Shown piece by piece: positions 29,692-50,212 of a DNA stretch of 64,000 nucleotides. Every line of letters begins with the position of its first letter. Positions within the stretch are counted from its first letter, which is position 1. The translations under genes and the position numbers were made by a program. The notes beneath the pieces were generated by a model. It did no database searches and was not told where the DNA came from. It was given only the letters and a program-made list of their open reading frames with translations. Origin of the DNA: Spirochaeta thermophila DSM 6192 (GTDB lineage Bacteria > Spirochaetota > Spirochaetia > Winmispirales > Winmispiraceae); NCBI RefSeq assembly GCF_000147075.1, contig NC_014484.1:1009501-1073500 (forward strand). Direction: 5' to 3'.

Positions 29692-32633
29692 GTGAGGTAC
29701 ATGGGTGTGAGGCTGCTCCTGTGGTGTCTCCTCGTCTTCCTGGTGGGGGGGGTGGTGTATGCAGGTGGGCAGGGGGAGGATGCGCTCGAAACGGCCCGGC
29801 GTCTGATAGAGGAGAAGCGGTACAACAGGGCGATAGAGATCATCACGCAGGTGATGCGGGAGGATCCCGATCGGATGGAGGAGGCTGAGGCCCTTCTCGC
29901 ACGGGTGCGGATGGTGCGGGGGGATTTCAACGCCCTGTATGCCGAGCTCATCGAGGTGCTCTATGTCCAGAGGGATGTGGAGCGGGCCCTCAGGATCATC
30001 GAAGAGCTGGAGGGAATGGACGAGGAACCGGATCCGGCGGTGAGGGAGTCGCTCGCGAGGGCCAAGGAGACGGCCCGGTTCGTGTACAATCAGGATCGGT
30101 TCAGGGAGATCATGGAGGAGGGGGCCCGGCTCCTCAATGCAGGGAGATACGCCGAGGCGGTCCGGCTCTATCGGGAGGGGTTCGGGCTCTACCGGGAGGA
30201 GTTCTTCTCCTCGCAGTATGGGAATGTGATACTCGACGAGGTGGGCAGGGTGGTCTCACGGTTGGACGGGATCGTAGGCGGGCTCTCCGAGGTGCTGGCC
30301 GATTTTGATGATGCCTGGAAGGGGTATGCGGCTGTGGTCGAAGGGGGTGGGGTGGATGAGGTGGTGGAGGGGTATGAGGCTTTCAGAGAGGCTGCGTTCC
30401 GGCTGGCTGCTGCGAGGAGGGAGGTCTTCCGATTGGGGCGGGTGGTGGCGTGGGAGAACCTCCGGGTGATGGAGAGTGCAGGGCTGGAGCGGGAGGATTT
30501 CTTCCTGGGGTTCATGCAGCGGCTCGTCCTCGGACGGATGCAGGTGCGGGAACGGGAGGGGGTGCTGGGGGCCCTGGAGCGGGCCCTGCTCGAGGGGCTC
30601 GGAGGGGTAACGGCGGGGCTCGAGCGGAGGCTTGAGGGTGTGGTGGAGGAGGGGTTCGGAGGGGGGGCGGTGTGGGCGGATGTGGTGAGGCTCGCAGGGG
30701 TGATGGTGCGGGTGCAGGAGTGCTGGGGGGCCTCGGGGGTATGGGAGAGGGGGGGGATGGGGGAGTGGGAGCGGGAGGTCGTGGGGCGTGGGGGGAGGGT
30801 CGTGTTGCTGGGGAGGGCGTACGGGGCGGTGGCGAGGGCGATGGAGCGGTTGGGGGAGGTGCGGGGGTGGGGGAGCCTGAGGGGGATGTGGATGTGCGGC
30901 TCGCGGCGGTGCGGGAGCGGGTGGCCGGGGTGCGGGGGGTGATGGGGGAGCTCGAGGAGGTGGTGAGGGTCTTCGAGGGGCGGTTCGGGGCGTTCGGAGG
31001 GAGGGATGCGGCACGGGTGGTGAGGGGTGCGGTGCGGCACCTCGAAGGGGTGGCGGCGGAGGAGGAGAGGCGGGCGGTGCGGGTGGTGGTGGAGGCCCTG
31101 GCGAGGGATGTGGGGAGGATGGAGGAGGGGGTGAGGGAGGGGGCGGCGATGGTGCAGGGTGTGCGGGAGTTGCTCGAGGGGAGGGAGGAGGAGGTGGAGG
31201 TGGGGGGTACGCTCCAGACCGTGCTCGCGAAGTATCCTCGGGAGGCCCTTGTCCTGGCGGAGGAGGCAGAGCAGGCGCTGCAGGGATACCTGTCGTTCCA
31301 TGCATCCCGCAGCCGGGTGTACGCCGCTCTGGAGGAGTACCTTCGTACCGATGAGGGGGTGGAGAGGCTCGTTGCGGGTTTCGACTCGAGCGCAGAGGAA
31401 GCGCGTGCTCTCCTCGAGACGCTCCAGGGGCTCAAGGAACAGGCCCGTGAGCAGTCTCTCCTCGCGGAACGATACCGCAACGAGGGGCTGAAGAGGCTCC
31501 AGGACGCGGAGCGCTCGATCGAGCGCGAGGCCTACGACGAAGCTCGGACCCTGCTCTCCGAGGCGGGGGAACTCTTCGCCACTTCCTTCTCGCACCAGGA
31601 AGATCCGGACCTGAGGAGGGAGGTGGATGCGAGGCTCATCGCCCTGTCGGAGCGTATCGTGAGCGAAGAGAACCAGCGGATCATCCGTGAGGTGCGATCC
31701 CTCATCACCCAGGGGAGGGAGCAGTACCTCCTGGGCAACTTCGAGGAGGCGGAACGACTCCTGCTCCGAGCCCAGGCCAGGTGGCGGGTGACCCATACCG
31801 AGGACAATGAGGAGGTGGTCTACTGGCTCAAGTTCGTCCGGGCCGCCCTCGCTGTCCAGCGGGGCAGGATCATCTCTGAGACCGATCCTCTCTACAGCGA
31901 GATCACCCAGCTTCTCAACCTCGCGCGCCAAGACTACCAGGCTGCTTCGGGGTTCATGGCTGAGGGGAGGGAGAGCGAGGCGATGAGGCTGCTCGATCAG
32001 GCGGTGGAGAAGCTGCTCAGGGTGAGGATGGCCTTCCCCCTCAACAGGGATGCGAGCATCCTCCTCCTGAGCATCGAACAGTTGCGAAATCCCGACAACT
32101 TCGATGCGCTTTTCAGGAGGCGTATCGATGAGGCGATCGCCAAGCTGAACACGGCGCCGCAGGAGGCCTACGTGGAGCTCCAGGATCTGGCCGCCATACG
32201 TCCCGACTTTCCGGGGCTCAAGGATGCGATCTACCGGGCCGAGATCACCCTGGGAATACGGGTGCCTCCTCCTGATCCCAGGAATATCGCTCGATCGAAA
32301 GAGCTCTATGCGCAAGCTCTCGAGATCTTCAACCGGAACGATCGGGCGAACTTTCCTGTGGCCCTTGAGCAGCTCAATCAGGCGATCACCCTCGATCCGG
32401 ACAATCAGGATGCCATCGTGCTCAAGGACCGGATCCAGCTTGCCATGGGGGCTCAGACCACGGTCACCCTCCCCAGTTATGCGCTCAGGCGCTACAAGGA
32501 GGCCGAACAGAAATACGTGGAGGGGAGATACTACGAGGCCCTGGCCATCGTCCAGGAGCTTCTTGCCGATGAGAGGGCGAAACGGTATCCTCCCCTTTTG
32601 GAGCTCAAACGGAGGATAGAATCAAGGCTATGA
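29692..32633 (+). pseudogene. Secreted TPR/coiled-coil protein, frameshifted in a G run
   Basis: One long protein of about 980 residues split over two frames. The first frame has a signal peptide (LLLWCLLVFLVGGVVYAGGQ) and TPR-like helices (RLIEEKRYNRAIEIITQVMR). It is lost near GEVRGWG at about 30868-30875, inside a GGG-T-GGGGG tract. Adding one base there continues in the second frame as EPEGDVDVRLAAVRERV to the stop at 32633, with further TPR-like units (FNRNDRANFPVALEQLNQAI). The final ATGA overlaps the SpoIIE-type gene, so the downstream half is under selection with it. Real mutation or homopolymer error cannot be decided. A TATACT lies at 29664. Confidence 0.75.
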
Positions 32634-37289: not shown

Positions 37290-38237
37290 ATGAAGATACG
37301 CCACTACGTGCTCCTCTTCCTCTTCACCACCGTGCTCGCCGCCCTCAACTCGAGCCAGTTCGGGGATGAGGTGGTGCTCTACAACGCCTCCACCCAGCCG
37401 GCAGGCTTCCTTCTCGTGCACAACGAGGAGGAGATCGCCCGCCTTTCGGCCGCCTCGATCCCCGATCTCCTCTCCTTCCTCGAGGAGAGGGGGGAAGAGA
37501 TCGAGCTCCTCGCTCCAGGGGAGTGGGTCGAGATGAGACAGGCGCCCGCCCTGGTCACAGGGTACCTCATCGATCGTGAGACCTTCCAGGCGAGGTTGTT
37601 CCGCGCTCTCCTTCCGTCCACGCCCGGGTGGTATCCCCTCGACGAGGAGGTGATCCTCGGTGAGGCCGGTGCCCCCGTCGTGCTTCCCCTCTGGAGTGTG
37701 CCGGTGCCGTTCTCGCCGGTGCTCCTCGACGGCACGGTCCGGGACTGGAAGAGATACCCGCCCTCGTGGGGGGCTCCCGACGACGGCCTCCCCCTGCGCG
37801 CCTTCCGGGGCACGCGTGAGGGGGAGGAGGAGATCGCCCTTGAGGACGCACGGTTGTGGAGGACTCGCGACCTCCTCCCTGAGCGGATCTGGCTGGCACG
37901 GAATCACACCCACTGGTACCTCGCGGTCTCAGGTCTCCCCGCCGAAGCCGGGCTCTCCCTCTTCCTCTATGCCTACGGTCGGGACGAGGTCCCGATCCGG
38001 GTGCTCGAGATTCCCCTCTCCGGAGGATCCTACGGCTACCTCGCTTCCTGGGAGGGAAGAGCTGAGCCTGCAGGGGTCTGGTGTGCAGGGCCTGAGGTGA
38101 TCGAGGCGCGTTGGCCGGTGGACGAGGAGACGCCCCGGAGATGGGAGATCACCACCTACTATCACGAAGGTACCACCTACGAGGAGTTCCTCATCGCCGT
38201 GCTTGAGGCCGAAGACGTGGTGGAGCTTTCGCCGTGA
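37290..38237 (+). CDS. Hypothetical exported protein
   Basis: About 315 residues. It begins MKIRHYVLLFLFTTVLAALN, an uncleaved or cleaved signal sequence, followed by a mixed beta domain with several Trp/Tyr-rich strands and a late TTYYHEGTTYEEFLIAVLEA. I chose the ATG at 37290 after aggaagaagg rather than 37272. The four-base overlap with the zinc-ribbon gene indicates coupling. No family recognised. Confidence 0.7.
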   Translation: MKIRHYVLLFLFTTVLAALNSSQFGDEVVLYNASTQPAGFLLVHNEEEIARLSAASIPDLLSFLEERGEEIELLAPGEWVEMRQAPALVTGYLIDRETFQARLFRALLPSTPGWYPLDEEVILGEAGAPVVLPLWSVPVPFSPVLLDGTVRDWKRYPPSWGAPDDGLPLRAFRGTREGEEEIALEDARLWRTRDLLPERIWLARNHTHWYLAVSGLPAEAGLSLFLYAYGRDEVPIRVLEIPLSGGSYGYLASWEGRAEPAGVWCAGPEVIEARWPVDEETPRRWEITTYYHEGTTYEEFLIAVLEAEDVVELSP

Positions 38238-38569
38238 AGAGGAGCACGTTCTACTGTGAGTATTGTCACCAGCAGGTGAGCCCGCGGGACAGGATTTGCC
38301 CCCACTGCGGAAGGATCTTCACCGATGTGAGGTGCCCCGAGTGCGGATATACCGGGGGGGTGAAGGAGTTCCTGAAGGGGTGCCCGAGCTGCGGCTACCT
38401 GGGTGAGGTGCACTATCCGGAGGAGAGACGGGAGGAACCGTCGGATGGAGCCAGCTCCTTCGTGATGTTCGAGAAGAAGGAATCCCTTCCCGCTTCGCTT
38501 TTCTGGATCATCATGCTCCTCCTGGGTGCCACCTTCCTGGTGCTCGTCTACTTCTATCTCTCTCTCTAG
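38234..38569 (+). CDS. Small zinc-ribbon membrane protein
   Basis: A 111-residue protein with four CxxC knuckles in the first 60 residues (YCEYC, CPHC, CPEC, CPSC), consistent with two zinc ribbons, and a C-terminal membrane helix (about 88-109). GTG start overlapping the previous stop. The topology, a cytoplasmic zinc domain on a tail anchor, suggests a scaffold or regulatory role; this is inference only. Confidence 0.7.
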   Translation: MKRSTFYCEYCHQQVSPRDRICPHCGRIFTDVRCPECGYTGGVKEFLKGCPSCGYLGEVHYPEERREEPSDGASSFVMFEKKESLPASLFWIIMLLLGATFLVLVYFYLSL

Positions 38570-38577
38570 GAGGTGCC

Positions 38578-39114
38578 ATGAGGGTCTACGGCCTCCTTGT
38601 GATGTGTGTGTCCCTCCTCTGGATCGTTCCGGAGGAGGCGCCGCCTCCCCAGCCCATTCAGCGGGGGTTCCGTGGCATCCAGCTGGGTGAGGCCGTGGAG
38701 GTGGTGAAGGAGAAGCTCAAACGTGACACCTTCTTTTTCTACAGAGAGGAGCTCGATGTGAGTTTCAGCCCCGGCCGGGACGACATCATCATCCAGACCA
38801 GGGCCTGGAAGTATATCACGAACGCCCAGTTCCAGTTCTACAACGAGCGGCTCTCGCTCATCGTGCTTCAGCTCGATACCACGCAGCTCGACTACTTCGG
38901 GATGTACCGGAAGTTCGTGGAGAAATACGGCGACCCGGAGGAGTTCAGCCCCTCGCTCGCACGCTGGTCGGACGAGAAGACCATCCTCATCCTCGAGCGA
39001 CCGCTCACCGTGAAGTACCTCGACCGGGCCTCCCACGAGGAGCTCACCCAAGGCAAGGCTGTACTTCAGAGCACGGAGGACATGGCCCGTGAAGCGTTCA
39101 TGGATCTGTTCTAA
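38578..39114 (+). CDS. Hypothetical secreted protein
   Basis: A 178-residue protein with a short hydrophobic N-terminus (MRVYGLLVMCVSLLWIV) and a globular domain beginning RGFRGIQLGEAVEVVKEKLK. It contains the pattern NAQFQFYNERLSLIVLQLDT typical of small beta-alpha envelope proteins conserved among spirochaetes. Its 3' end overlaps the start of the DUF192 gene by 26 bases. Function unknown. Confidence 0.65.
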   Translation: MRVYGLLVMCVSLLWIVPEEAPPPQPIQRGFRGIQLGEAVEVVKEKLKRDTFFFYREELDVSFSPGRDDIIIQTRAWKYITNAQFQFYNERLSLIVLQLDTTQLDYFGMYRKFVEKYGDPEEFSPSLARWSDEKTILILERPLTVKYLDRASHEELTQGKAVLQSTEDMAREAFMDLF

Positions 39115-39532
39115 GGCGGCTGGCCTGGTCTTCACGCTCTCCGTCCTGTTCGGATGCGTGGGAGGAGAGGTGGCACACATCAGGATCGACGGGGTATCGC
39201 TCAAGGTGGAGGTTGCCGACACCCCGGCGGAACGGGAGCGCGGGCTCATGGGCCGCACGACCCTCGCGCCCTATGACGGCATGCTCTTCGTGTTCCCCAG
39301 GGCGTACCGGGCGGCCTTCTGGATGAAGGATACCCCGCTCCCGCTCTCGGTGGCATTCATCGACGAGGCGGGGGTGATCCGGGAGATACACCACCTTGTA
39401 CCGTTTTCGACAGTGCCCGTTCAGGCCTCAGTCCCTGTGCGGTACGCCCTCGAGGTGGAAGAGGGATTCTTCGATATGCACGGTATCAGGGTAGGGGACG
39501 TGGTCCATCTGCCTGAGCGGCTCAGGCAGTAG
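39089..39532 (+). CDS. DUF192 family lipoprotein
   Basis: A 147-residue protein. A lipobox (VLFGC, Cys23) ends the signal peptide, and the DUF192 domain follows with its hallmarks: ERERGLMGRTTLAPYDGMLF, FWMKDTPLPLSVAFID and a C-terminal YALEVEEGFFDMHGIRVGD. The family is widespread and of unknown biochemical function. The GTG start at 39089 lies inside the end of the previous gene, which is needed to include the lipobox. Confidence 0.85.
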   Translation: MKRSWICSKAAGLVFTLSVLFGCVGGEVAHIRIDGVSLKVEVADTPAERERGLMGRTTLAPYDGMLFVFPRAYRAAFWMKDTPLPLSVAFIDEAGVIREIHHLVPFSTVPVQASVPVRYALEVEEGFFDMHGIRVGDVVHLPERLRQ

Positions 39533-41113: not shown

Positions 41114-42607
41114 ATGAAGTACGACGTGGTGCTCACCGGCCTGCACTTCACCGAATATGCCCTTACGCCCCTCGCCTCGGGCCCTTCCGCCTTCGCCCGC
41201 GCCCTCGACCTCGCCCGCCGGCTCTCCCCCCGCCACCACCTCCTCCTCCCACCCACCCACCCACCCCTCCCCGACGGCGCCCCCACCCCCCTCACCGTCC
41301 CCCCCACCCAGCGCGGCCTCGCCGAGGCCCTCGCCACCCTCGCCGCGCGCACCGACGCCGAGGCCTTCCTCATCCTCCACGCCGACGCCCCCTTCACCCA
41401 CCACGGCCTCGCCACCCGCCTCCTCGACCAGCACGAACGCTACCTAGCCGACTACACCTTTGCCGAAGGCTACCCCGACGGGCTCGCGCCTGAGGTGATC
41501 TCACGCCGTGCCCTCTCGGCCCTCACCCGGCTCGCAGGCGACGAACCCCTCACCCGCAAGGCCCTCTTTCCCATCCTCCAGAAGGACATCAACGCCTTCG
41601 ACATAGAGACCGTCCTCTCGTCGCATGACGCCCGGCTCCTCCGCATCCCCCTCTTCGCCGACACCCGCCGTAACCACCTCCTCTGCGACCGGCTTGCAGC
41701 CCTTCCCCTCTGGGACAAGGACGCCGACGAGATCACCGCCTACCTCCTCTCCCACAAGGAGCTCCTCCGCACCCTCCCGGCCTACTATCAGATCCAGGTG
41801 GTCCGTGGGTGTCCCCAGGCCTGCGCCTACTGCCCCTATCCCCTCGAGGAAGACGTACGTGCGGTGCGCGCCTTCATGGAACCGGCACGCTTCGCCGGCC
41901 TGGTGGACCGCATCGCCGCGTTCTCCGACGATGCGGTGATCGGCCTCTCCCTCTGGGGCGAGCCCGGCCTCCACCCCGCCGTCGCCGAACTCGCCGCCTC
42001 CGTCCTCGCCCACCCGCGGCTCTCCCTCCTGGTCGAGACCTCCGGGATAGGCTGGGACCCTGCGGCACTCGAACGCACCGCCTCCCTCGATACCACCGGC
42101 AGGCTCATGTGGATCGTCTCCCTCGACGCCGTGGATCCCGCCCTCTACCGGAGCCTCCGCGGCGACGGCCTCGAGGAGGCCCTTCGCACCGTCGAAACCC
42201 TCCACCGCATCGTCCCGGACCACACCCATGTCCAGGCCGTGCGCATGAAGGAGAACGACGCCCACCTGCGCACCTTCTATCAGCGCCTCACCGAGCGCGG
42301 GTACAAGGTGATCTTCCAGCAGTACGACTCCTTCTGCGGCAGGCTCCCCGACCGCATGGTGGTGGACATCTCGCCCCTCACCCGCATCCCCTGCTGGCAC
42401 CTCGCCCGCGACATGGTGATCCTCTTCGACGGCACCGTACCCCTCTGCCGCGAAGACCTCGATGCGGCGCACCCCCTCGGCAACGTCTGGGAGGACGAGC
42501 TCGAGGAGCTATGGGAGCGGGGGAGGCCGTGGTACGAACGTCACGCGCGGGAGGAGTATCCCGAGCTCTGCGCGAGGTGCACCGAGTACTTCAACTTCAA
42601 CTTCTAG
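41114..42607 (+). CDS. Spiro-SPASM radical SAM protein
   Basis: A 497-residue protein. The first about 200 residues resemble a nucleotidyltransferase-like domain; the radical SAM core has the Cys233-x3-Cys237-x2-Cys240 cluster site (GCPQACAYCPYP). The C-terminal SPASM domain contains CWHLARDMVILFDGTVPLCR and ends CARCTEYFNFNF. The family, restricted to spirochaetes, has no established reaction. The neighbouring glycosyltransferase-like and cytidylyltransferase-like genes suggest sugar or glycan modification. Codons are strongly C-ending, unlike the G-ending genes 3 kb downstream. Confidence 0.9.
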   Translation: MKYDVVLTGLHFTEYALTPLASGPSAFARALDLARRLSPRHHLLLPPTHPPLPDGAPTPLTVPPTQRGLAEALATLAARTDAEAFLILHADAPFTHHGLATRLLDQHERYLADYTFAEGYPDGLAPEVISRRALSALTRLAGDEPLTRKALFPILQKDINAFDIETVLSSHDARLLRIPLFADTRRNHLLCDRLAALPLWDKDADEITAYLLSHKELLRTLPAYYQIQVVRGCPQACAYCPYPLEEDVRAVRAFMEPARFAGLVDRIAAFSDDAVIGLSLWGEPGLHPAVAELAASVLAHPRLSLLVETSGIGWDPAALERTASLDTTGRLMWIVSLDAVDPALYRSLRGDGLEEALRTVETLHRIVPDHTHVQAVRMKENDAHLRTFYQRLTERGYKVIFQQYDSFCGRLPDRMVVDISPLTRIPCWHLARDMVILFDGTVPLCREDLDAAHPLGNVWEDELEELWERGRPWYERHAREEYPELCARCTEYFNFNF

Positions 42608-42617
42608 AGGGATGCGC

Positions 42618-43535
42618 ATGACCGTACCGTACACCGTGGTAGGAGAAGGATCAGGCACCGTCCCGAACCACTCGGGCCTCACCGTGGCCCTCATGGTGCG
42701 CGGGCTCCTCGCCTCGCGGGAGGACCTCGCCCGCACCGCCCGACGGGTGCAGCCGGCCCGCATCCTCTTCCTCGAGGAGCGGCCCGTGCACTACGATGTG
42801 GATGCCCTGGTGAGCACGTACCCAGAACTCCGTGTGCTCTACTTCAAGGAGCAGGTCCCCCGGGGGCAGATGGTGGAGGTGGCCCTCTCAGAGGCCGCCA
42901 CCGACTATGTGCTCGTACTCGACGGGCCGGTGCACGATCTCAGGCTCCCCAGGCGCCTTCCCGTGCCTGAGGAGGATGTGGTGGTCTCGGTCCCGGCCTT
43001 ACGGTTCGCAGGAGAGCCCCTCCCCTCGGTCTACGCCCCTGCCTTCTCCCGGCGGCTCCTCAAGGTGCTCCCCTTAGGCAGGCCTGCAGGGGGGACTCCC
43101 ACCATCCTCATCCCCGGCTACACGGGGCTCTATCGTCGTGACCTGGTGGAAGCCGTGGGCGGGTTCGACCCCGAGATCCCACATCCCTACTGGCAGCGGC
43201 TCGAGTTCGCCTTCAGGTGTTTCCTCTTCGGCTACAGGCTCCTCTACTACCCACACGTCGAGGTGGAGCTCTTTTCCCAGCCCGCACCGGAGGATCTCAC
43301 GCCCGACAGTTCGTCCTTCAGGTTTTTCCTCAAGGTGCTCGCACCGAGGAGGAAGGAGGGGAAGATGCACCTCTCCCTGTGGAGGGCGCTCCACGCAGGG
43401 ATCCGGGCAGGGGTGGGGTGGCAGCGGGCGGTGAGGGAGTTCCGGGATGTGCGAAGGTGGCTGGAGGAGACGGAGGGCCTCTTCCGACAGGACGCCGTCA
43501 CCCTGGTGGCCTCCTGGGAGGTGGAGGAGGTATGA
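42618..43535 (+). CDS. Glycosyltransferase-like protein
   Basis: About 305 residues. The stretch IPGYTGLYRRDLVEAVGGFD, then PYWQRLEFAFRCFLFGYRLL, matches the second half of GT-A family 2 transferases, while the first half lacks an obvious DxD motif (the closest is LVLDGPVHD). I chose the ATG at 42618, six bases after gaggg, rather than 42612. It overlaps the next gene with ATGA. Activity not certain. Confidence 0.7.
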   Translation: MTVPYTVVGEGSGTVPNHSGLTVALMVRGLLASREDLARTARRVQPARILFLEERPVHYDVDALVSTYPELRVLYFKEQVPRGQMVEVALSEAATDYVLVLDGPVHDLRLPRRLPVPEEDVVVSVPALRFAGEPLPSVYAPAFSRRLLKVLPLGRPAGGTPTILIPGYTGLYRRDLVEAVGGFDPEIPHPYWQRLEFAFRCFLFGYRLLYYPHVEVELFSQPAPEDLTPDSSSFRFFLKVLAPRRKEGKMHLSLWRALHAGIRAGVGWQRAVREFRDVRRWLEETEGLFRQDAVTLVASWEVEEV

Positions 43536-44218
43536 CGGGCATCTTCCTCCAGGCCAGGATCGACTCTTCGCGGCTTCCGGCCAAGGCCCTCCTCGCGCTG
43601 GGGGGGAGGACCCTCATCGAGCACGCCATGGTGCGGCTGAGGCGGGTGCCGGCCGATGTGTACGTGCTGCTCACGGATGATGCGAGCCTTCCTTTTCTCG
43701 CTCCCTATGCCCAGGCCCGTGGGTTCGAGGTCTTTGCAGGGCCGAGGGATGATGTGCTCATGCGGTACGTCATGGCGGCCAAGGCCTATGGGGTGCGTAC
43801 GGTGGTCCGTGCCACGGGCGACAATCCGCTCGTCTCTGCAGTGGCGGCCTCGGCGGCGCTTGAGTTCCACTCCCGAGGGGGGGCCGATTATACGGGGTTC
43901 AGGGACATCCCGCTGGGTACGGGGGTGGAGGTGGTGGATGCGTCGGCTCTCTTCCGGGCCGCGGAGGAGACGGTCGACCCTTACGACAGGGAGCACGTGA
44001 CGCCATACGTGCGCCGGGGGGAGGGGGGACTGGTGGTCAACCTGGTCGATCCGCCTCCCTCGTGGGCTGCGCCGCACCTCAGGGTCACGGTGGACACCCT
44101 CGATGACTTCCTCTTCGTGTGTCGGATCATGAGCGAGGATCCGGATGTGGAGATCGAGGACCTGGTGGCGGGGTGGGGTGGGAAGGCGCGGGATGCGGTG
44201 GTGGGGGGGGTGTGGTGA
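43532..44218 (+). CDS. spsF: SpsF/NeuA-type cytidylyltransferase-like protein
   Basis: A 228-residue protein with the nucleotidyltransferase opening (IFLQARIDSSRLPAKALLAL), RATGDNPLVSA and DPYDREHVTPYVRR, the pattern of SpsF-type proteins that activate acidic sugars or act on polysaccharides. The ATG overlaps the previous stop and its own stop overlaps the next ATG, so this run is a tight operon. Confidence 0.8.
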   Translation: MTGIFLQARIDSSRLPAKALLALGGRTLIEHAMVRLRRVPADVYVLLTDDASLPFLAPYAQARGFEVFAGPRDDVLMRYVMAAKAYGVRTVVRATGDNPLVSAVAASAALEFHSRGGADYTGFRDIPLGTGVEVVDASALFRAAEETVDPYDREHVTPYVRRGEGGLVVNLVDPPPSWAAPHLRVTVDTLDDFLFVCRIMSEDPDVEIEDLVAGWGGKARDAVVGGVW

Positions 44219-45870
44219 TGGGGGTGAGGGTGGTGTGTGTGGCCCAGGAGGGGAAGGGGGTGGGGACGGGGCACAGGGTCAGGATGGAGCGGCTCGCGGA
44301 GGGGCTTCGGAAAGAGGGGGTTGAGGCAGGGGTGCGGGTGTGGGATGGGGGGAGGTGGGAGGGTGAGGGGGGGGAGGTGGTGTGGGTGGTGGATGTGCGG
44401 CGCTCGGAGCGTGGGTGGGTGAGGGCGCTCAAGGAGGAGGGGGTGGTGGTGGCGCTCGATCCGGATCCCGTGCTCGCCCGGGAGGCGGATGTGGTGCTCG
44501 CTGGGTTGCCGCAGGCGCACCGGGAGCGGGTGAACGTGCGGGTGGCGCCGGTGTGGTGGGAGGTGCCGCGGCGGGAGGGGAGGGGGCGCGAGATCCGGCG
44601 GGTTCTGGTGAGCTTCGGGGGGGAGGATCCGTGGGGGCTCACCGAGTGGGTGTGCGGTCTGGATGGGGGGGTGTGGGGGGGGTGTGAGGTGGAGGTGGTG
44701 GTGGGGCCGAGGTTCGGGAGGGAGGTGCGCACGGGGTGGCGGGTGGTGCGGCCTTCAGGGCCGCTCCACGAGCGCCTTGGGGACTACGATCTGGTGATCA
44801 CCTCGTTCGGGCTCACGGCGTACGAGGCGCGGAAGGCGGGGGTGGGGGTCCTGCTCCTCAACCCTACGGCCTACCACGCGGGACTGGGGAGGCGGGCGGG
44901 GTTTGCGGGGGGGCGGCCGGGGCGGGGGTGGGTGAGGCTGCTTGGGCGTGTGTTGAGGGGTGGGGAGGAGGGGGTGTGGGGGGAGGGGGTCGGGGGGAGG
45001 AGTGCGGTGGAGGTGGTGAGGGGGGTGGTGGAGGGGTGGGGTGGGGTGGGGTGTCCGGGGTGTGGGGAGCGGGGGAGGCGGGCGGTGTGGCGGGGGGAGG
45101 AGAGGACGGTGGTGCGGTGCGCGGGGTGTGGGCTGGAGTATGTGCTGGGGTTGGGGCCGGCGGAGCGGGAGTATGGGCCGGACTACTTCTTCGAGGAGTA
45201 CCGCGCGCAGTACGGGAGGACCTACCTGGAGGACTTTGCGTCCATAGTTGAGCGGGGGAGGGAGCGGGTGCAGGTGTTGCGGCGATGGGTGCCGGAGGGG
45301 GGGAGGGTGCTGGATGTGGGGTGTGCGTATGGGCCGTTCCTGGTGGCGGCGAGGGAGGGTGGGTATGTGCCGGCGGGGCTGGATGTGGGGGAGGATGCGG
45401 TGGCGTATGTGCGGCAGGAGCTGGGGGTGTGGGCGTGGGTGGGACGATTCGAGGAGTGGGAGGAGGAGGGGGAGTGGGATGCCCTCACCATGTGGTTCGT
45501 GATAGAACACTTCCGCAGGCTTTCGGAGGTCCTCGACAAGGTAGCCCGCCTCCTCAAAAAGGGAGGGATGTTCGCCTTCGGCACCCCGAACGCGCGCGGC
45601 CTCTCCTGGCTCCTCAGGAGGGATCGCTTCTATCGGGAGAGCCCCCGTGATCATCACCTCCTCCTTTCGGTGGGGGTGGTGCGCCGTCTCCTCGGACGGT
45701 GGGGGATGAAGGTGGTGGCCGTGAGACAGACAGGCCTCCACCCGGAACGTATCCCGGTCCTGGGACGCCTCTTTCCCCCGGGGACGCTGAGATGGAGGAT
45801 CACGGGCCGGCTCCTGGGTCTCCTGGGGCTCGGTGATACTATCGAGATCTATGCCAAGAAGTACGGATGA
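44218..45870 (+). CDS. PseG-like nucleotide-sugar hydrolase / zinc-ribbon methyltransferase fusion
   Basis: A 550-residue protein. Residues 1-260 follow the PseG/MurG-type fold (GTGHRVRMERLAEGLRKEGV, LVSFGGEDPWGLTEW, ITSFGLTAYEARKAGVGVLL). Cysteines 279/282 and 301/304 form a zinc ribbon. Residues about 330-550 are a SAM methyltransferase (RVLDVGCAYGPF near 366). This fusion joins an activated-sugar hydrolase or transferase with a methylation step. Codon use is extreme (GGG, GTG, CGG) up to about 45480 and then normal, so the two halves may differ in origin. Start at 44218, overlapping the upstream stop. Confidence 0.75.
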   Translation: MGVRVVCVAQEGKGVGTGHRVRMERLAEGLRKEGVEAGVRVWDGGRWEGEGGEVVWVVDVRRSERGWVRALKEEGVVVALDPDPVLAREADVVLAGLPQAHRERVNVRVAPVWWEVPRREGRGREIRRVLVSFGGEDPWGLTEWVCGLDGGVWGGCEVEVVVGPRFGREVRTGWRVVRPSGPLHERLGDYDLVITSFGLTAYEARKAGVGVLLLNPTAYHAGLGRRAGFAGGRPGRGWVRLLGRVLRGGEEGVWGEGVGGRSAVEVVRGVVEGWGGVGCPGCGERGRRAVWRGEERTVVRCAGCGLEYVLGLGPAEREYGPDYFFEEYRAQYGRTYLEDFASIVERGRERVQVLRRWVPEGGRVLDVGCAYGPFLVAAREGGYVPAGLDVGEDAVAYVRQELGVWAWVGRFEEWEEEGEWDALTMWFVIEHFRRLSEVLDKVARLLKKGGMFAFGTPNARGLSWLLRRDRFYRESPRDHHLLLSVGVVRRLLGRWGMKVVAVRQTGLHPERIPVLGRLFPPGTLRWRITGRLLGLLGLGDTIEIYAKKYG

Positions 45871-45948
45871 GTGTTCCCTCCTCACATCCTCATGCGAGCT
45901 GAAGATGTGCCGATTCTTGGAGTAAGAGGTGTAGTGTGGGAGGGGATC

Positions 45949-47559
45949 ATGGAAGACCAGAAGACCGTACTCATCCTCGGTGCAGGGGTCATGCAGCTTC
46001 CCGCGATCAAGATCGCCAGGCGCCTGGGATGGAGGGTGGCTGTGGCCGACGCCGACCCCTCTGCCCCAGGGGCACGGCTTGCGGATCTCTTCTTCCACGT
46101 CGATCTCAAGGATACCGAAGGGCTCCTCGCTGCAGCCCGGAAGCTCGCCTCTCAGGGAGGGCTTCACGGTGTGTTCACCGCAGGCACCGACTTCTCCACG
46201 AGCGTGGCCTACGTGGCCGAGAGGATGGGGCTCCCGGGCATACCCTACGAGGTGGCGTTGAGGGCCAAGGACAAGGCGCTCATGCGGGACCACCTCCACC
46301 GTGCGGGAATCCCGGTACCCCGATATGGGGTGCTCTCACGTGAGGAGAGAGCGAACCGCCTCCTCGAGGAGGCACGTCGGATCCCCTTTCCCCTCGTGGT
46401 GAAGCCCGCGGACAACATGGGGGCCCGTGGCGTGCGGCTGGTGAGGGACACCACTGAGCTTGAGGAGGCGTTCGAGAGGGCTGCGGCCTGTTCCCTCTCC
46501 GGGAAGGTGGTGCTGGAGGAGTTCCTCGAGGGTCCGGAGTTCAGTATCGACGCCGTGGTGTGGCGGGGAGAGGTGCACATCTGCGGCGTCGCCGACAGGC
46601 ACATCTTCTTCCCTCCTTATTTCGTGGAGATGGGCCACACCATGCCCACGGATACCCCCCCCTCGGTGAGGGCCGAGCTCGAGGAGGTCTTTGTCCAGGC
46701 CGTGAAGGCCTTGGGGATCACCGAGGGTGCGGCGAAGGGCGACGTGTTCTACACCGGCCGCGGCCCTGTCATCGGCGAGATCGCGGCCCGCCTCTCGGGC
46801 GGCTACATGTCGGGGTGGACCTATCCCTATGCCTCGGGGGTGGAGGTCACCGAGGCCGCCCTCCGCATCGCGGTCGGCCTCCCGCCGGGTGATCTTTCCC
46901 CCCGGTGGGAACGGGTGTGCGCCGAGCGGGCCTTTCTCTCCATACCCGGCGTGGTGCGATCGATAGAAGGCTTCCACCTCCTCAGGCTCGAGCCGGGGGT
47001 GAAGAAGACCTTCCTCAGGATCTCTCCCGGAGACAGGGTGCGCTTCCCGACGAACAACGTGGAGAAGTGCGGGAACGTGCTCGCCCTTGGCGAGACTCGG
47101 GAAGAGGCGGTCGCCCGCGCAGAAGGGAGCGTGTCCCGGGTGAGACTCGTACTCCTCCCCGGAGATACGGAGACCTCCTCCTTCCTTTTCGAAGACACCT
47201 CGTTCCCTTCCGCCTTCGGACTCGCTCATCACGAAGAGGTCCACCTCTCTCGTCTCTCGCCTCTGTACCGCAGCTTACCTCGGGTTTCCCCTCCCTGTCG
47301 GGTGAGGAACGTAGGACGGAACGCCTATGTGGACATCCTCCCTCTCAGGGTGAAACAGGACCGGGATTGGTACTGTCACACCATAGGGGAGATCCTGGAA
47401 GAGATGGACACATACCTCGCCTCGATGCCACCTCTCCCGCGGATTCTGGGGAGGGACTTCTGGATTGCCCTTCTCAAAGGTGGCTGGCAGGGCGCGAGGT
47501 GGTACGTGGACACCCTCCGCGAGGGAGTTGATCCGAGAACCCTGGAGCCTGTGGGATGA
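45949..47559 (+). CDS. ATP-grasp domain protein
   Basis: A 536-residue protein beginning VLILGAGVMQLPAIKIARRL, a Rossmann-like first domain, followed by an ATP-grasp fold with FPLVVKPADNMGARGVRLVR, VLEEFLEGPEFSIDAVVWRG and VIGEIAARLSGGY. The C-terminal 130 residues are extra. Proteins of this group ligate a carboxylate to an amine or thiol using ATP; the substrate is unknown. I start at 45949 (gaggggatc upstream). Four bases overlap the next gene. Confidence 0.85.
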   Translation: MEDQKTVLILGAGVMQLPAIKIARRLGWRVAVADADPSAPGARLADLFFHVDLKDTEGLLAAARKLASQGGLHGVFTAGTDFSTSVAYVAERMGLPGIPYEVALRAKDKALMRDHLHRAGIPVPRYGVLSREERANRLLEEARRIPFPLVVKPADNMGARGVRLVRDTTELEEAFERAAACSLSGKVVLEEFLEGPEFSIDAVVWRGEVHICGVADRHIFFPPYFVEMGHTMPTDTPPSVRAELEEVFVQAVKALGITEGAAKGDVFYTGRGPVIGEIAARLSGGYMSGWTYPYASGVEVTEAALRIAVGLPPGDLSPRWERVCAERAFLSIPGVVRSIEGFHLLRLEPGVKKTFLRISPGDRVRFPTNNVEKCGNVLALGETREEAVARAEGSVSRVRLVLLPGDTETSSFLFEDTSFPSAFGLAHHEEVHLSRLSPLYRSLPRVSPPCRVRNVGRNAYVDILPLRVKQDRDWYCHTIGEILEEMDTYLASMPPLPRILGRDFWIALLKGGWQGARWYVDTLREGVDPRTLEPVG

Positions 47560-48575
47560 AGAGAGGAGTCCTCTTCCTGCTCGTGTTCCTCGTTTCTCTC
47601 GTCGCCGTGTTCGGTGAGGAAGGGAACGCAGGTATATATCCACTCCTCTCCTTCCTCCACGATGTCGGAGGCCATCTCTACTGGGATCCCCTTGGGAGGA
47701 AAGGCCTCATCTCCACACCCTCCCATCTCCTCTCCTTCTCGCCGGAGAGTCCTGTGGCCTACCTGGATTACCGTACCCCTGTGAAGGTGACATTCACCGA
47801 ACGGAACGGCGCGATTTTCCTCACCGACGAGACAAAGGACCGCCTTCTCTCCCTCCTCGAGGAGGAACGGGGCCCTCGGATCGCCGCGATCATCCTCGAT
47901 CCCGGACATGGGGGCAAGGATCCGGGGACCATAGGCACCCACACCCTGTCCGACGGGAAGAAGCTCGTGATCCAGGAGAAGGAGGTGGTGCTCTCCATCT
48001 CCCTCCGGTTGAGGGATCTCCTCGAGAAGGCGTATCCCGACAAGCGCATCTTCCTCACCAGGGAATCCGACCGCTACCTCTCGCTGGAAGAGCGCACCGA
48101 ATTCGCCAACACCGTACTGAGCGACTATTGGGAGGATGCCGTTCTCTTCATCTCGATTCATGCGAACGCCTCTCTCAATCGAAACGCGAAGGGCTTCGAA
48201 GTGTGGTATCTCCCCGAGGACTATCGGAGAACAGTGGTGGATCCAAAGGATGTCGAGGCGGAGGAGGTCTTCCCCATCCTCAACAGCATGAAGGAGGAGG
48301 AGCTCTTCGTCGAGGGACTGCTCCTCGCACGAATGGTCTCCGACGGGCTCGAGTCGACGATCGGGAAGGTGAGTCCCAACAGGGGGCTCAAGGCCGAGAA
48401 GTGGTACGTGGTGAGGAACGCGCGGATGCCTGCGGTCCTCGTGGAGGTGGGATTCGTCACCGAACCCGAGGAGGCGAGGCTGCTCTCCACCCCTGCCTAC
48501 TTGCAGGATATCGCGCGCGGCCTCTATAATGGAGTCGCCCGATTCATAGAGCACTATGAATCGCTCTCATTCTGA
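47556..48575 (+). CDS. amiC: N-acetylmuramoyl-L-alanine amidase
   Basis: A 339-residue protein with a signal peptide (MKRGVLFLLVFLVSLVAVFG), a N-terminal beta domain and an Amidase_3 catalytic domain: IAAIILDPGHGGKDPGTIG with the zinc His, then Glu in QEKEVVLSISLRLRD, ISIHANAS and VEVGFVTEPEEARLL. It cleaves the stem peptide from peptidoglycan in the periplasm, typically during cell separation. It overlaps the ATP-grasp gene and runs straight into the GerMN gene. The exact paralogue name (AmiA/B/C) is not certain. Confidence 0.9.
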   Translation: MKRGVLFLLVFLVSLVAVFGEEGNAGIYPLLSFLHDVGGHLYWDPLGRKGLISTPSHLLSFSPESPVAYLDYRTPVKVTFTERNGAIFLTDETKDRLLSLLEEERGPRIAAIILDPGHGGKDPGTIGTHTLSDGKKLVIQEKEVVLSISLRLRDLLEKAYPDKRIFLTRESDRYLSLEERTEFANTVLSDYWEDAVLFISIHANASLNRNAKGFEVWYLPEDYRRTVVDPKDVEAEEVFPILNSMKEEELFVEGLLLARMVSDGLESTIGKVSPNRGLKAEKWYVVRNARMPAVLVEVGFVTEPEEARLLSTPAYLQDIARGLYNGVARFIEHYESLSF

Positions 48576-49090
48576 TGTCGTGCAAGGAAGGATCCGTGCG
48601 AAGGAACATCCTCACGAGGCCTGAGTATGCACTCGCGGCGTATATCGTGACATTCGTCCTCTCCGTCTTCCTCTACCGGGTATTCCCTCCCGAAGATGTG
48701 CGGGTGGTCACCTTCTTTCCCGGAGTGATCACGCCGCGCCTCGAAGGCGAGGTACACTATCTCCCCCGGGAGGAGACGAGGGAGGGGCAGGTGGAGGAGT
48801 TCATCCGGCACCTCTTCCTCGGTCCCAAGGAGGTGACGCACACCCCTCTCTTCACCCACGACACACGTATACTGATCCTCATCGTCACCGAGACCACGGT
48901 CTACCTCGATCTCAGCAAGGAGGCCTTTTTCTCCACGGAGAGATTGCAGGTGTCGTTCCGTCAGAGTTTGGAGGCCCTCAGGAAGAACGTATTCTTTAAT
49001 TTTCGATATATAAAAGAAATGAACATAACGATCGAGGGGCAGCTCCCCTATGAGTCTCCCTTCCTTGAGGATCTGGAGAAGGAAATGTGA
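48575..49090 (+). CDS. GerMN domain protein
   Basis: A 171-residue protein with one N-terminal membrane helix (about 18-38) and a GerMN domain (QVEEFIRHLFLGPKEVTHTP, then TTVYLDLSKEAFF), a sporulation/lipoprotein-type domain found near peptidoglycan amidases. ATG 48575 overlaps the stop of the amidase; a GTG at 48596 preceded by aaggaagg is an alternative start. Likely works with the amidase at the envelope. Confidence 0.8.
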   Translation: MSCKEGSVRRNILTRPEYALAAYIVTFVLSVFLYRVFPPEDVRVVTFFPGVITPRLEGEVHYLPREETREGQVEEFIRHLFLGPKEVTHTPLFTHDTRILILIVTETTVYLDLSKEAFFSTERLQVSFRQSLEALRKNVFFNFRYIKEMNITIEGQLPYESPFLEDLEKEM

Positions 49091-49147: not shown

Positions 49148-49183
49148 TCTAATTAGTAAGCCTTTATGAAAAAGGAGCACGGG

Positions 49184-50212
49184 ATGAAACGGATCTTTAT
49201 GCTTTTGGCGATGAGTCTTCTGGTTCTGGGGAGTCTGCAGGTCCTTGCGGAGGAAGCTGTCCTTATAGATTTTTCCACCCTCACGCCTGACTATCCCGCG
49301 GATAATCCCACGGAGAACAGTGCCACCCTCGTGGACTACAGTGTCTCTGCGGGTGCGGGGTTCAGCGAGGAGGATAAGGCCCTCATGAAGACCTCGCTCG
49401 CAATCAACAACTGGGAGGTCCACCTCAACTCTTCGGCCAGGTTCGTGGTCACCGAGGTGAACTCCTATGTCAGAGAGGCGAGGGTGAAGGACACGGCTCC
49501 CAAGTACGCCGGAGAGACGGTGATGGGCGTGCGGGTGGCCTTCCCGGATACCCCCTACAACGCCTGGGCGATCGTCCAGCCGCCCTTCGAGATCCCCGCA
49601 TATGCGGACAAGACCGTGGTGAATCCTGACGGGACCCTCAGCGTACCTCAGGAAGAAGTAGGAAAGGGGACTAAATTCCATGGATACGGGGTGGTCACCA
49701 ACGTGGGCGTCCTGAAGTCGGTCCATGTGAACGTTCGGGGACTCAACTTCCCACAGGGCCTCTCCCTCATCCTCCAGGATCAGAACGGCGAGCAGCAGGA
49801 GATCTTCCTCGGCTATCTGAACTTCGACGGCTGGAAGGAGCTCGTGTGGGAGAACCCGAACTACATCGAGGACGTGAGGAAGCGGGAACTCAAGACCTAT
49901 CCTCTCTATCCCAACCTGCGGCCTCTTGTGAAGCTCATCGGGTTCAGGATCTACAAGGATGGGAGCATGGCGGGTGGTGATTTCATCACCTACATCAAGG
50001 ATGTGCGCGTGGTCTACGACAAGGCCGTGCTCGATCTCGAAGAGGACATCGACCACGAGGCCATCTGGGGTATCCTCCAGTCGAGAGAAGAAGCGCGTCG
50101 AAACGCCGAACTCCGCAGACTCGGGAACCTCCAGGTGCTCCGCTATCTCGAGCGGAAGAAGATGCACGCCGAGGCCGGTACGGAGGCGGGGGCCGAGACG
50201 CAGACCCAGTGA
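49184..50212 (+). CDS. flaA: Flagellar filament outer-layer (sheath) protein FlaA
   Basis: A 342-residue exported protein with a signal peptide (MKRIFMLLAMSLLVLGSLQV, then LAEEAVL). The domain has the FlaA features: ETVMGVRVAFPDTPYNAWAI, KFHGYGVVTNVGVLKSVHVN and the repeated IYKDGSMAGGDFITYIKDVR. FlaA coats the spirochaetal periplasmic filament. The ATG at 49184 follows AAGGAG at six bases, so I prefer it to 49166. A sigma70 promoter drives it, and a rho-independent terminator follows. Confidence 0.9.
   Translation: MKRIFMLLAMSLLVLGSLQVLAEEAVLIDFSTLTPDYPADNPTENSATLVDYSVSAGAGFSEEDKALMKTSLAINNWEVHLNSSARFVVTEVNSYVREARVKDTAPKYAGETVMGVRVAFPDTPYNAWAIVQPPFEIPAYADKTVVNPDGTLSVPQEEVGKGTKFHGYGVVTNVGVLKSVHVNVRGLNFPQGLSLILQDQNGEQQEIFLGYLNFDGWKELVWENPNYIEDVRKRELKTYPLYPNLRPLVKLIGFRIYKDGSMAGGDFITYIKDVRVVYDKAVLDLEEDIDHEAIWGILQSREEARRNAELRRLGNLQVLRYLERKKMHAEAGTEAGAETQTQ

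Follow-up and report, generated by a model that had tools for sequence, protein, structure and literature searches.

The pathways closest to the gene block considered here, which surrounds the radical S-adenosylmethionine (SAM) protein spiro-SPASM of Spirochaeta thermophila DSM 6192, are those that build pseudaminic and legionaminic acid. The block lies in a 64,000-nucleotide stretch of NC_014484.1 (the window), and coordinates given without a genome or locus handle are positions in it. With the pseudaminic acid pathway of Helicobacter and Campylobacter (PseB-C-H-G-I-F plus Maf), spirochaetes share a NeuB/PseI synthase, a PseC-like aminotransferase, a PseG-like hydrolase, a cytidylyltransferase, and Maf transferases, alongside flagellin. 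In contrast to that pathway, PseH (TIGR03585) is above its cut-off in none of the 52 genomes searched, all spiro-SPASM-positive genomes examined for them have an ATP-grasp ligase and a zinc-ribbon methyltransferase, and spiro-SPASM itself has no counterpart in that pathway. The sps genes for legionaminic acid in Bacillus subtilis (SpsC, D, E, F, G, M) likewise include SpsE-, SpsF-, and SpsG-type enzymes, and the SpsF and SpsG relatives are adjacent or fused here. However, a ligase stands here against SpsD there, described as a putative acetyltransferase (PMC7439481), and the likely destination here is flagellin rather than the spore crust.

Campylobacter jejuni flagellin carries a di-O-methylglyceroyl pseudaminic acid, an O-methylated hydroxy-acid amide (PMC3068675), and so sets a precedent for methoxy-acylated pseudaminic acid in this setting; there the acyl group sits on N5 and is linked to Cj1295, an aminopeptidase-like gene, rather than to an ATP-grasp ligase. 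The flagellin glycan of Treponema denticola is 450.2 Da and is reported to be indispensable both to motility and to assembly of the filament (PMC9481697). For Leptospira FlaB1, putative glycans are placed at the core–sheath interface of the flagella (PMC13144727). Literature searches returned nothing that names spiro-SPASM or links radical SAM enzymes with spirochaete flagellin glycosylation, and no named genes for the unusual T. denticola acyl group or for the biosynthesis of the glycan.

Genes 1, 3, 4, and 5 of the block probably form a spirochaete-specific unit that supplies the specialised part of a pathway to a cytidine monophosphate (CMP)-activated, O-methylated, N-acylated nonulosonic acid of the pseudaminic type, delivered via Maf to serine or threonine residues of FlaB. 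The unit has one strange component, spiro-SPASM, and stands beside an unrelated pair, gene 2 and the amidase. The six genes are as follows.

41114-42607, + strand: gene 1, spiro-SPASM (TIGR04321, 591.9 bits against a cut-off of 250)
42612-43535, + strand: gene 2, glycosyltransferase A (GT-A) fold protein with unassigned substrate (by predicted structure; no Pfam or NCBIfam match)
43532-44218, + strand: gene 3, SpsF/NeuA-type cytidylyltransferase (PF02348, E 9.8e-22)
44215-45870, + strand: gene 4, PseG/SpsG-like hydrolase domain fused to a zinc ribbon and a SAM methyltransferase (PF13489, E 8.9e-17)
45949-47559, + strand: gene 5, ATP-grasp carboxylate-amine ligase with an L-amino acid ligase C-terminal domain (PF18603 LAL_C2, E 2.1e-17)
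47556-48575, + strand: gene 6, N-acetylmuramoyl-L-alanine amidase (Amidase_3; PF01520, E 1.9e-46)

The preliminary description of this DNA had proposed a run of adjacent glycan-type genes with small overlaps, and the run is confirmed: each gene between 41114 and 48575 is a single open frame on the + strand, with 4-base overlaps at 43532-43535, 44215-44218, and 47556-47559. Genes 1 and 2 are separated by 4 bases, and a 78-base gap precedes the ligase ATG (45949), where an alternative GTG start is possible at 45871.

The distribution of the unit follows that of flagellin and of the nonulosonate enzymes encoded elsewhere. TIGR04321 matched 318 of 392 Spirochaetota genomes at E<=0.001 and exceeded its cut-off in 289, as against 0 of 14 control genomes from outside the phylum. 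Genomes are called positive below at E<=1e-46, and without a strong match when there was none or one at E 1e-12 or larger; family labels are inferred, namely f4 as Borreliaceae-like (flagellated), f11 as Sphaerochaetaceae-like (no flagellin), and f29 as Brachyspiraceae-like. Flagellin was found in all 80 positives. Among the 90 genomes without a strong match, 78 were searched for flagellin, the remaining 12 all being Borreliaceae-like; 42 of the 78 had none, 24 were Borreliaceae-like and all flagellated, and 12 were other flagellated assemblies, ten of them under 90% complete. NeuB at E<=1e-47 was present in 59/59 positives and 0/6 Borreliaceae-like genomes, and among 15 aflagellate genomes two had a strong match, ten a weak aldolase-like match, and three none; the synthase of the window's own genome (G000) lies at G000:C1:2132488-2133255 (E 5.3e-49). 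Maf transferases (55/55 positives, 0/8 negatives) and the zinc-ribbon methyltransferase (37/37 and 0/7) follow the same pattern, the latter either as part of a fusion or, in f25/f49-type genomes, apparently as a separate gene. The ATP-grasp ligase occurs in 55/55 positives, 0/3 Borreliaceae-like genomes, and 2/5 aflagellate genomes (one weakly, one at E 5e-89), and the PseC-like aminotransferase in 44/44, 0/3, and 4/5, respectively. PseH gave no match whatever in G000 or in the T. pallidum-like genome G049. NeuB was considered as a member of the block and rejected, since it is located elsewhere with different neighbours.

Joint losses and a change in the acceptor provide further evidence. On an rpoB tree of 29 genomes, from which the G056 row (a bad sequence with branch length 10) was dropped before counting, well-supported branches force four losses of genes 1, 3, 4, and 5, and three of flagellin. 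Three of the four unit losses coincide with flagellin loss; the fourth is that of the Borreliaceae-like family, which kept its flagella and has none of NeuB, Maf, the ligase, or the PseC-like enzyme. For FlaB of T. denticola the motifs VEVSQL and DRIAS have been named, and both of their serines are reported to be substituted in Borrelia burgdorferi (PMC7431986). Among 20 flagellins read here, all six from Borreliaceae-like genomes have IE(I/V)EQL...NRIAD, with Glu and Asp at the reported glycosylated serines, while the 14 others keep the second acceptor serine in every case and the first in 12, two Brachyspira-like proteins having Asn. The three flagellins of the window's genome (L191-L193) conserve the acceptor-site serines. 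Borrelia-type spirochaetes differ in having lost the whole unit and in having both reported acceptor serines replaced by acidic residues.

The order of the block is not a product of chance. We read 100 loci, 80 named ones, which are relatives of the window's own spiro-SPASM and not a random sample, and 20 taken by place. The full order 1-2-3-4-5-6 is found at 39 of the 52 named loci whose downstream sequence extends for 7 kb or more and at 12 of the 20 taken by place, in agreement with the idea of a spirochaete-specific, co-inherited block. Scattering without co-inheritance, which the preliminary description had named as evidence to the contrary, was looked for: within Spirochaetia the genes stay together, and outside it they are partly scattered yet co-occur. 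In other classes spiro-SPASM adjoins a cytidylyltransferase–PseG fusion (L122, L124) or the separate genes (L123), or stands alone (L120). Genes 3 and 4 form one open frame in the T. pallidum-like genome (L111), in Treponemataceae-like L112-L114, in L048, and in the T. denticola-sized genome (L260). These fusions, together with those between the ligase and a flavin mononucleotide (FMN) alpha-hydroxyacid dehydrogenase described below, count as support for a common pathway.

Five negative loci, two Borreliaceae-like, two from f11, and one from f8 (L205-L209), reveal what the block looks like when empty. At all five, the amidase comes immediately after gene 2, and nothing there matched the profiles of genes 1, 3, 4, and 5. 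The surroundings at the Borreliaceae-like loci match those of the window, with zinc-ribbon and DUF192 genes upstream (in the window's order at L205/L206) and FlaA downstream. The flanking features in the window are the following.

38234-39532, + strand: upstream syntenic markers, a zinc-ribbon protein, a 178-aa protein, and a DUF192 protein (Pfam)
48575-49090, + strand: GerMN/Germane-like protein (PF10646, 22.6 bits, just below the cut-off of 23)
49166-50212, + strand: FlaA flagellar filament outer-layer (sheath) protein (PF04620, E 8.4e-82)

Gene 2 is present in 7/8 Spirochaetia positives and 5/6 negatives, and weakly in 3/20 genomes of other classes. Its membership in the unit, which the preliminary description had assumed for a GT2-like gene, is therefore rejected: it persists where genes 1, 3, 4, and 5 have been lost, and beyond Spirochaetia it is either missing or matched weakly. 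Because the empty loci keep only gene 2 and the amidase, these two represent a separate pair, which the sugar unit either entered or left, and the amidase is a conserved neighbour outside the unit. A sequence-profile search yielded no solved relative of gene 2. Its AlphaFold2 (AF2) model, with a predicted local distance difference test score (pLDDT) of 90.5, has a GT-A fold nearest to polypeptide N-acetylgalactosamine (GalNAc) transferases (VIA-align Z 19.6, 265 aligned, 3.7 Å, 10% identity), a modelled likeness of fold that carries no functional assignment. The pairing of a gene 2-like GT-A protein with a cell-wall amidase extends across Spirochaetia, including Borreliaceae-like and aflagellate genomes.

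The sequences of genes 3, 4, and 5 point to nonulosonate-type chemistry. Gene 3 belongs to CTP_transf_3 (78.3 bits against a Pfam cut-off of 22.6), its G-loop residues R9, S12, R14, and K18 are invariant in 33/33 proteins, and its closest solved relative is 6oew, a Leptospira borgpetersenii protein (E 1.3e-20); from its sequence it is of the CMP-nonulosonate cytidylyltransferase type, with a predicted substrate. The hydrolase half of gene 4 carries a GxGHxxR motif and scores 16.2 bits against 153.55 for the PseG equivalog TIGR03590. Because that curated cut-off is not reached, the earlier label of a PseG-like hydrolase survives as PseG/SpsG-like, and PseG proper is not supported. The zinc-ribbon cysteines C280, C283, C302, and C305 are invariant columns in the alignment, and the C-terminal methyltransferase is a Methyltransf_23 domain. 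Gene 5 scores above the cut-offs of LAL_C2 (63.6 bits against 29.4) and ATP-grasp_4 (55.4 against 27; E 7.2e-15) and matches the L-amino acid ligase 3vot at E 6.2e-22, which makes it an L-amino acid ligase-like ATP-grasp protein with predicted substrates. At 14 of 15 non-Spirochaetia loci (L160-L172 and L174, not L173) the ligase has an added alpha-hydroxyacid dehydrogenase domain of the FMN_dh type, in most cases bearing a CxxCDGxxCRGxxPGMGG-like signature, a fusion that fits an alpha-hydroxy (later alpha-methoxy) acid as the ligase substrate. As a universal member of the pathway this dehydrogenase was rejected, its profile matching only 19 of 46 genomes. A free-standing FMN_dh lies two genes past the cassette of the T. 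pallidum-like genome (L111:15341-16222).

We propose that a PseB-type dehydratase, whose presence is assumed and for which no search was made, and the PseC-like aminotransferase, both elsewhere in the genome, would generate a uridine diphosphate (UDP)-4-amino sugar. The ATP-grasp ligase would then join the carboxylate of a polyhydroxy acid to the 4-amine, replacing the PseH/acetyl-CoA step, and the methyltransferase would O-methylate the acyl chain. The PseG-like domain may remove UDP, NeuB may condense the product with phosphoenolpyruvate, gene 3 would yield the CMP-sugar, and Maf would transfer it to flagellin. The ligand of spiro-SPASM is most likely this same nonulosonate, free or CMP-linked, bound beside an iron–sulfur (SPASM) site, as the dead cytidylyltransferase copy in the protein keeps sugar-side motifs; radical modification would be possible in lineages like that of the window, with non-radical work in others. 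Such a scheme names a handful of genes, allows glycan masses to be predicted for their deletion, and gives spiro-SPASM a biological process.

The product may be identical with the T. denticola glycan, to our knowledge the only solved spirochaete flagellin glycan. That genus has genes 1 and 2, the 3+4 fusion (L260; L112), the ligase, NeuB, and Maf. According to an account by Kurniyati in 2017, the glycan is said to be a pseudaminic-type nonulosonate, mono-N-acetylated and bearing a 2-methoxy-4,5,6-trihydroxyhexanoyl group on N7; the residue mass computed for that structure is 450.185, against the published 450.2 Da. The gene set fits this glycan because an acid-amine ligase and an O-methyltransferase are present, the textbook pathway having neither, and PseH is missing. 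The T. pallidum-like genome G049 (about 1.1 Mb; L111, L157, L179) retains spiro-SPASM, the 3+4 fusion, the ligase, NeuB, the PseC-like enzyme, and four Maf matches, and flagellin glycosylation there seems to be under strong selection.

Spiro-SPASM itself is composed of a cytidylyltransferase fold (residues 1-226) and a radical SAM barrel with a SPASM domain (218-497). In the window copy Pfam Radical_SAM, SPASM, and NTP_transf_3 are all above cut-off, and the AF2 model has a pLDDT of 93.8 and a predicted template modelling score (pTM) of 0.91. The suggested kinship of the N-terminal domain with SpsF/NeuA is borne out both by structure prediction (6oew in VIA-align, Z 20.8, 218 aligned, 3.0 Å) and by comparison with the gene 3 profile (hhalign E 2.8e-8 over 184 columns; direct profile match 8.6e-7). 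Among 55 spiro-SPASM sequences, Asp91, Pro93, Tyr114, Gly119, Pro121, and Gly123 are invariant and the sugar-side motifs are kept, and the positions aligned to the gene 3 G-loop hold no conserved Arg or Lys. Because the G-loop Arg/Lys for cytidine triphosphate are not conserved, the domain does not qualify as an active cytidylyltransferase. The C-terminal part aligns with SuiB (Z 23.6, 266 aligned, 2.8 Å) and BtrN (4m7t; Z 21.9, 232 aligned, 2.8 Å), followed by BlsE (Z 20.8), SkfB (20.3), viperin (18.9), and DesII (18.3). A barrel with a SPASM/twitch domain is common to spiro-SPASM and BtrN, BlsE, DesII, and viperin; unlike these, spiro-SPASM adds the N-terminal cytidylyltransferase fold, and many of its members lack the radical cluster site.

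In the window the CxxxCxxC triad is intact (C233, C237, C240), and judging from its sequence this copy could be an active radical enzyme. Across 139 distinct proteins (151 raw), a convenience sample of best scorers, relatives of the window protein, and hand-picked families, 105 keep both the triad and the SPASM sites. The triad is missing from 34, of which 32 keep all four SPASM cysteines and two have an incomplete set. Proteins of the T. pallidum-sized and T. denticola-sized (L004) genomes are among the triad-less, in contrast to that of the window. Triad-less members still pass the TIGR04321 cut-off of 250 (516.7, 622.3, 460.2, and 529.8 bits); the T. pallidum-like and T. denticola-genus members have no match to Pfam Radical_SAM and score above cut-off for SPASM, and a Brachyspira-like member likewise has SPASM only. 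On a quick tree without bootstrap and with long-branch warnings, loss of the triad requires at least four events on branches supported by the Shimodaira–Hasegawa-like approximate likelihood ratio test (SH-aLRT) alone, and eight changes on the best tree. Radical chemistry cannot be the shared function of the family, because the triad has gone in several lineages in which the protein was retained, and the earlier proposal of a radical enzyme modifying a sugar as the general role fails with it. Our tentative reading, held with somewhat less than even confidence, is of a "de-radicalised" family with a shared non-radical task in flagellin glycosylation: a dead cytidylyltransferase domain would hold the CMP-nonulosonate beside the SPASM iron–sulfur site, probably to serve Maf or gene 3 as a scaffold, sensor, or transfer partner. 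The ancestral radical reaction would then survive in some lineages only, as optional tailoring of the sugar, lost at least four times, including in the T. pallidum-like genome, which otherwise shed genes. A radical SAM protein that drops its radical cluster while the SPASM site stays is unusual and can be tested spectroscopically.

It is unlikely that spiro-SPASM is instead a working radical enzyme whose sugar reaction, for instance an acyl-chain deoxygenation as by AprD4/DesII/BtrN-like enzymes, is essential to the pathway. The intact triad in the window and in most of the distinct proteins fits that view, as do the sugar and nucleotide enzymes BtrN, BlsE, viperin, and DesII among the fold neighbours; however, the triad-less proteins mostly keep their SPASM cysteines, Radical_SAM goes unmatched in two of them, and T. 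denticola bears an elaborate glycan regardless (PMC9481697). Radical 3-deoxygenation of the acyl chain was rejected as a general role since glycan-bearing treponemes lack the triad cysteines. It is improbable, too, that spiro-SPASM matures a peptide or protein, be it flagellin or some other, and shares the operon for expression only. The top VIA-align rows are indeed peptide maturases (SuiB and SkfB), among which SPASM domains are common, but the N-terminal domain is a cytidylyltransferase relative of gene 3, no leader-peptide-binding domain was identified in spiro-SPASM, and the small-molecule enzymes BtrN and BlsE are close in Z. We consider it very improbable that the product of the block is an acidic glycan of the envelope, on lipopolysaccharide, a lipoprotein, or a wall polymer, and that the co-occurrence with flagellin is due to shared ancestry only. 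The amidase directly downstream, the retention of gene 2 beside it in aflagellate genomes, and the di-N-acetylated nonulosonic acids that Leptospira is reported to express (PMC3438082) would suit such a glycan. Against it stand the four losses that the tree requires, three coinciding with loss of flagellin, the persistence of gene 2 and the amidase where genes 1, 3, 4, and 5 go, the distribution of Maf, a flagellin-glycosyltransferase-type family, and the replacement of the acceptor serines in the flagellated family without the unit. Of the acidic or nonulosonate-like sugar for an envelope or flagellar glycan that had been put forward, the nonulosonate chemistry and the flagellar use are upheld and the envelope use is not.

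Several observations weigh against a flagellin nonulosonate unit. Two flagellated genomes, G315 (93% complete) and G319 (96%), have no strong spiro-SPASM match, and a sign test on the four independent pairs is incapable of reaching significance (p 0.25). The PseC-like matches fall below the equivalog cut-off in all genomes but one; that of G000 scores 350.5 bits against 423.5 for TIGR03588 and does not qualify as PseC. The profile of the FMN dehydrogenase had no match in G000, and the agreement in mass depends on the glycan structure as reported for T. denticola. The full order is broken at 13 of the 52 named loci with enough downstream sequence, and at L032, L033, L040, and L042 the run is 1-2-3-6, genes 4 and 5 being absent from their positions. 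The NeuB and ATP-grasp families also serve elsewhere, because aflagellate G226 and G370 retain a strong NeuB and aflagellate G385 retains the ATP-grasp relative at E 5e-89. Finally, Leptospira biflexa is reported to have no identifiable nonulosonic acid by the assay used (PMC3438082), which stands against the model unless a modified sugar escapes that assay.

Some further loci bear separate mention. In aflagellate G385 the ATP-grasp relative adjoins a PseC-like aminotransferase (G385:C1:1810595-1815159), which suggests enzyme reuse for another glycan. Five Treponema loci from metagenome-assembled genomes (L032, L033, L040, L042, L045) read 1-2-3-6, the PseG-methyltransferase and ligase being absent from between. 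Elsewhere in the window, two long + strand open reading frames overlap in different frames (29692-30942 and 30672-32633) within a G-rich stretch of strong guanine–cytosine skew, and look like a single repeat-rich gene interrupted by a change of frame, or else like the effect of a frameshift in the deposited sequence.

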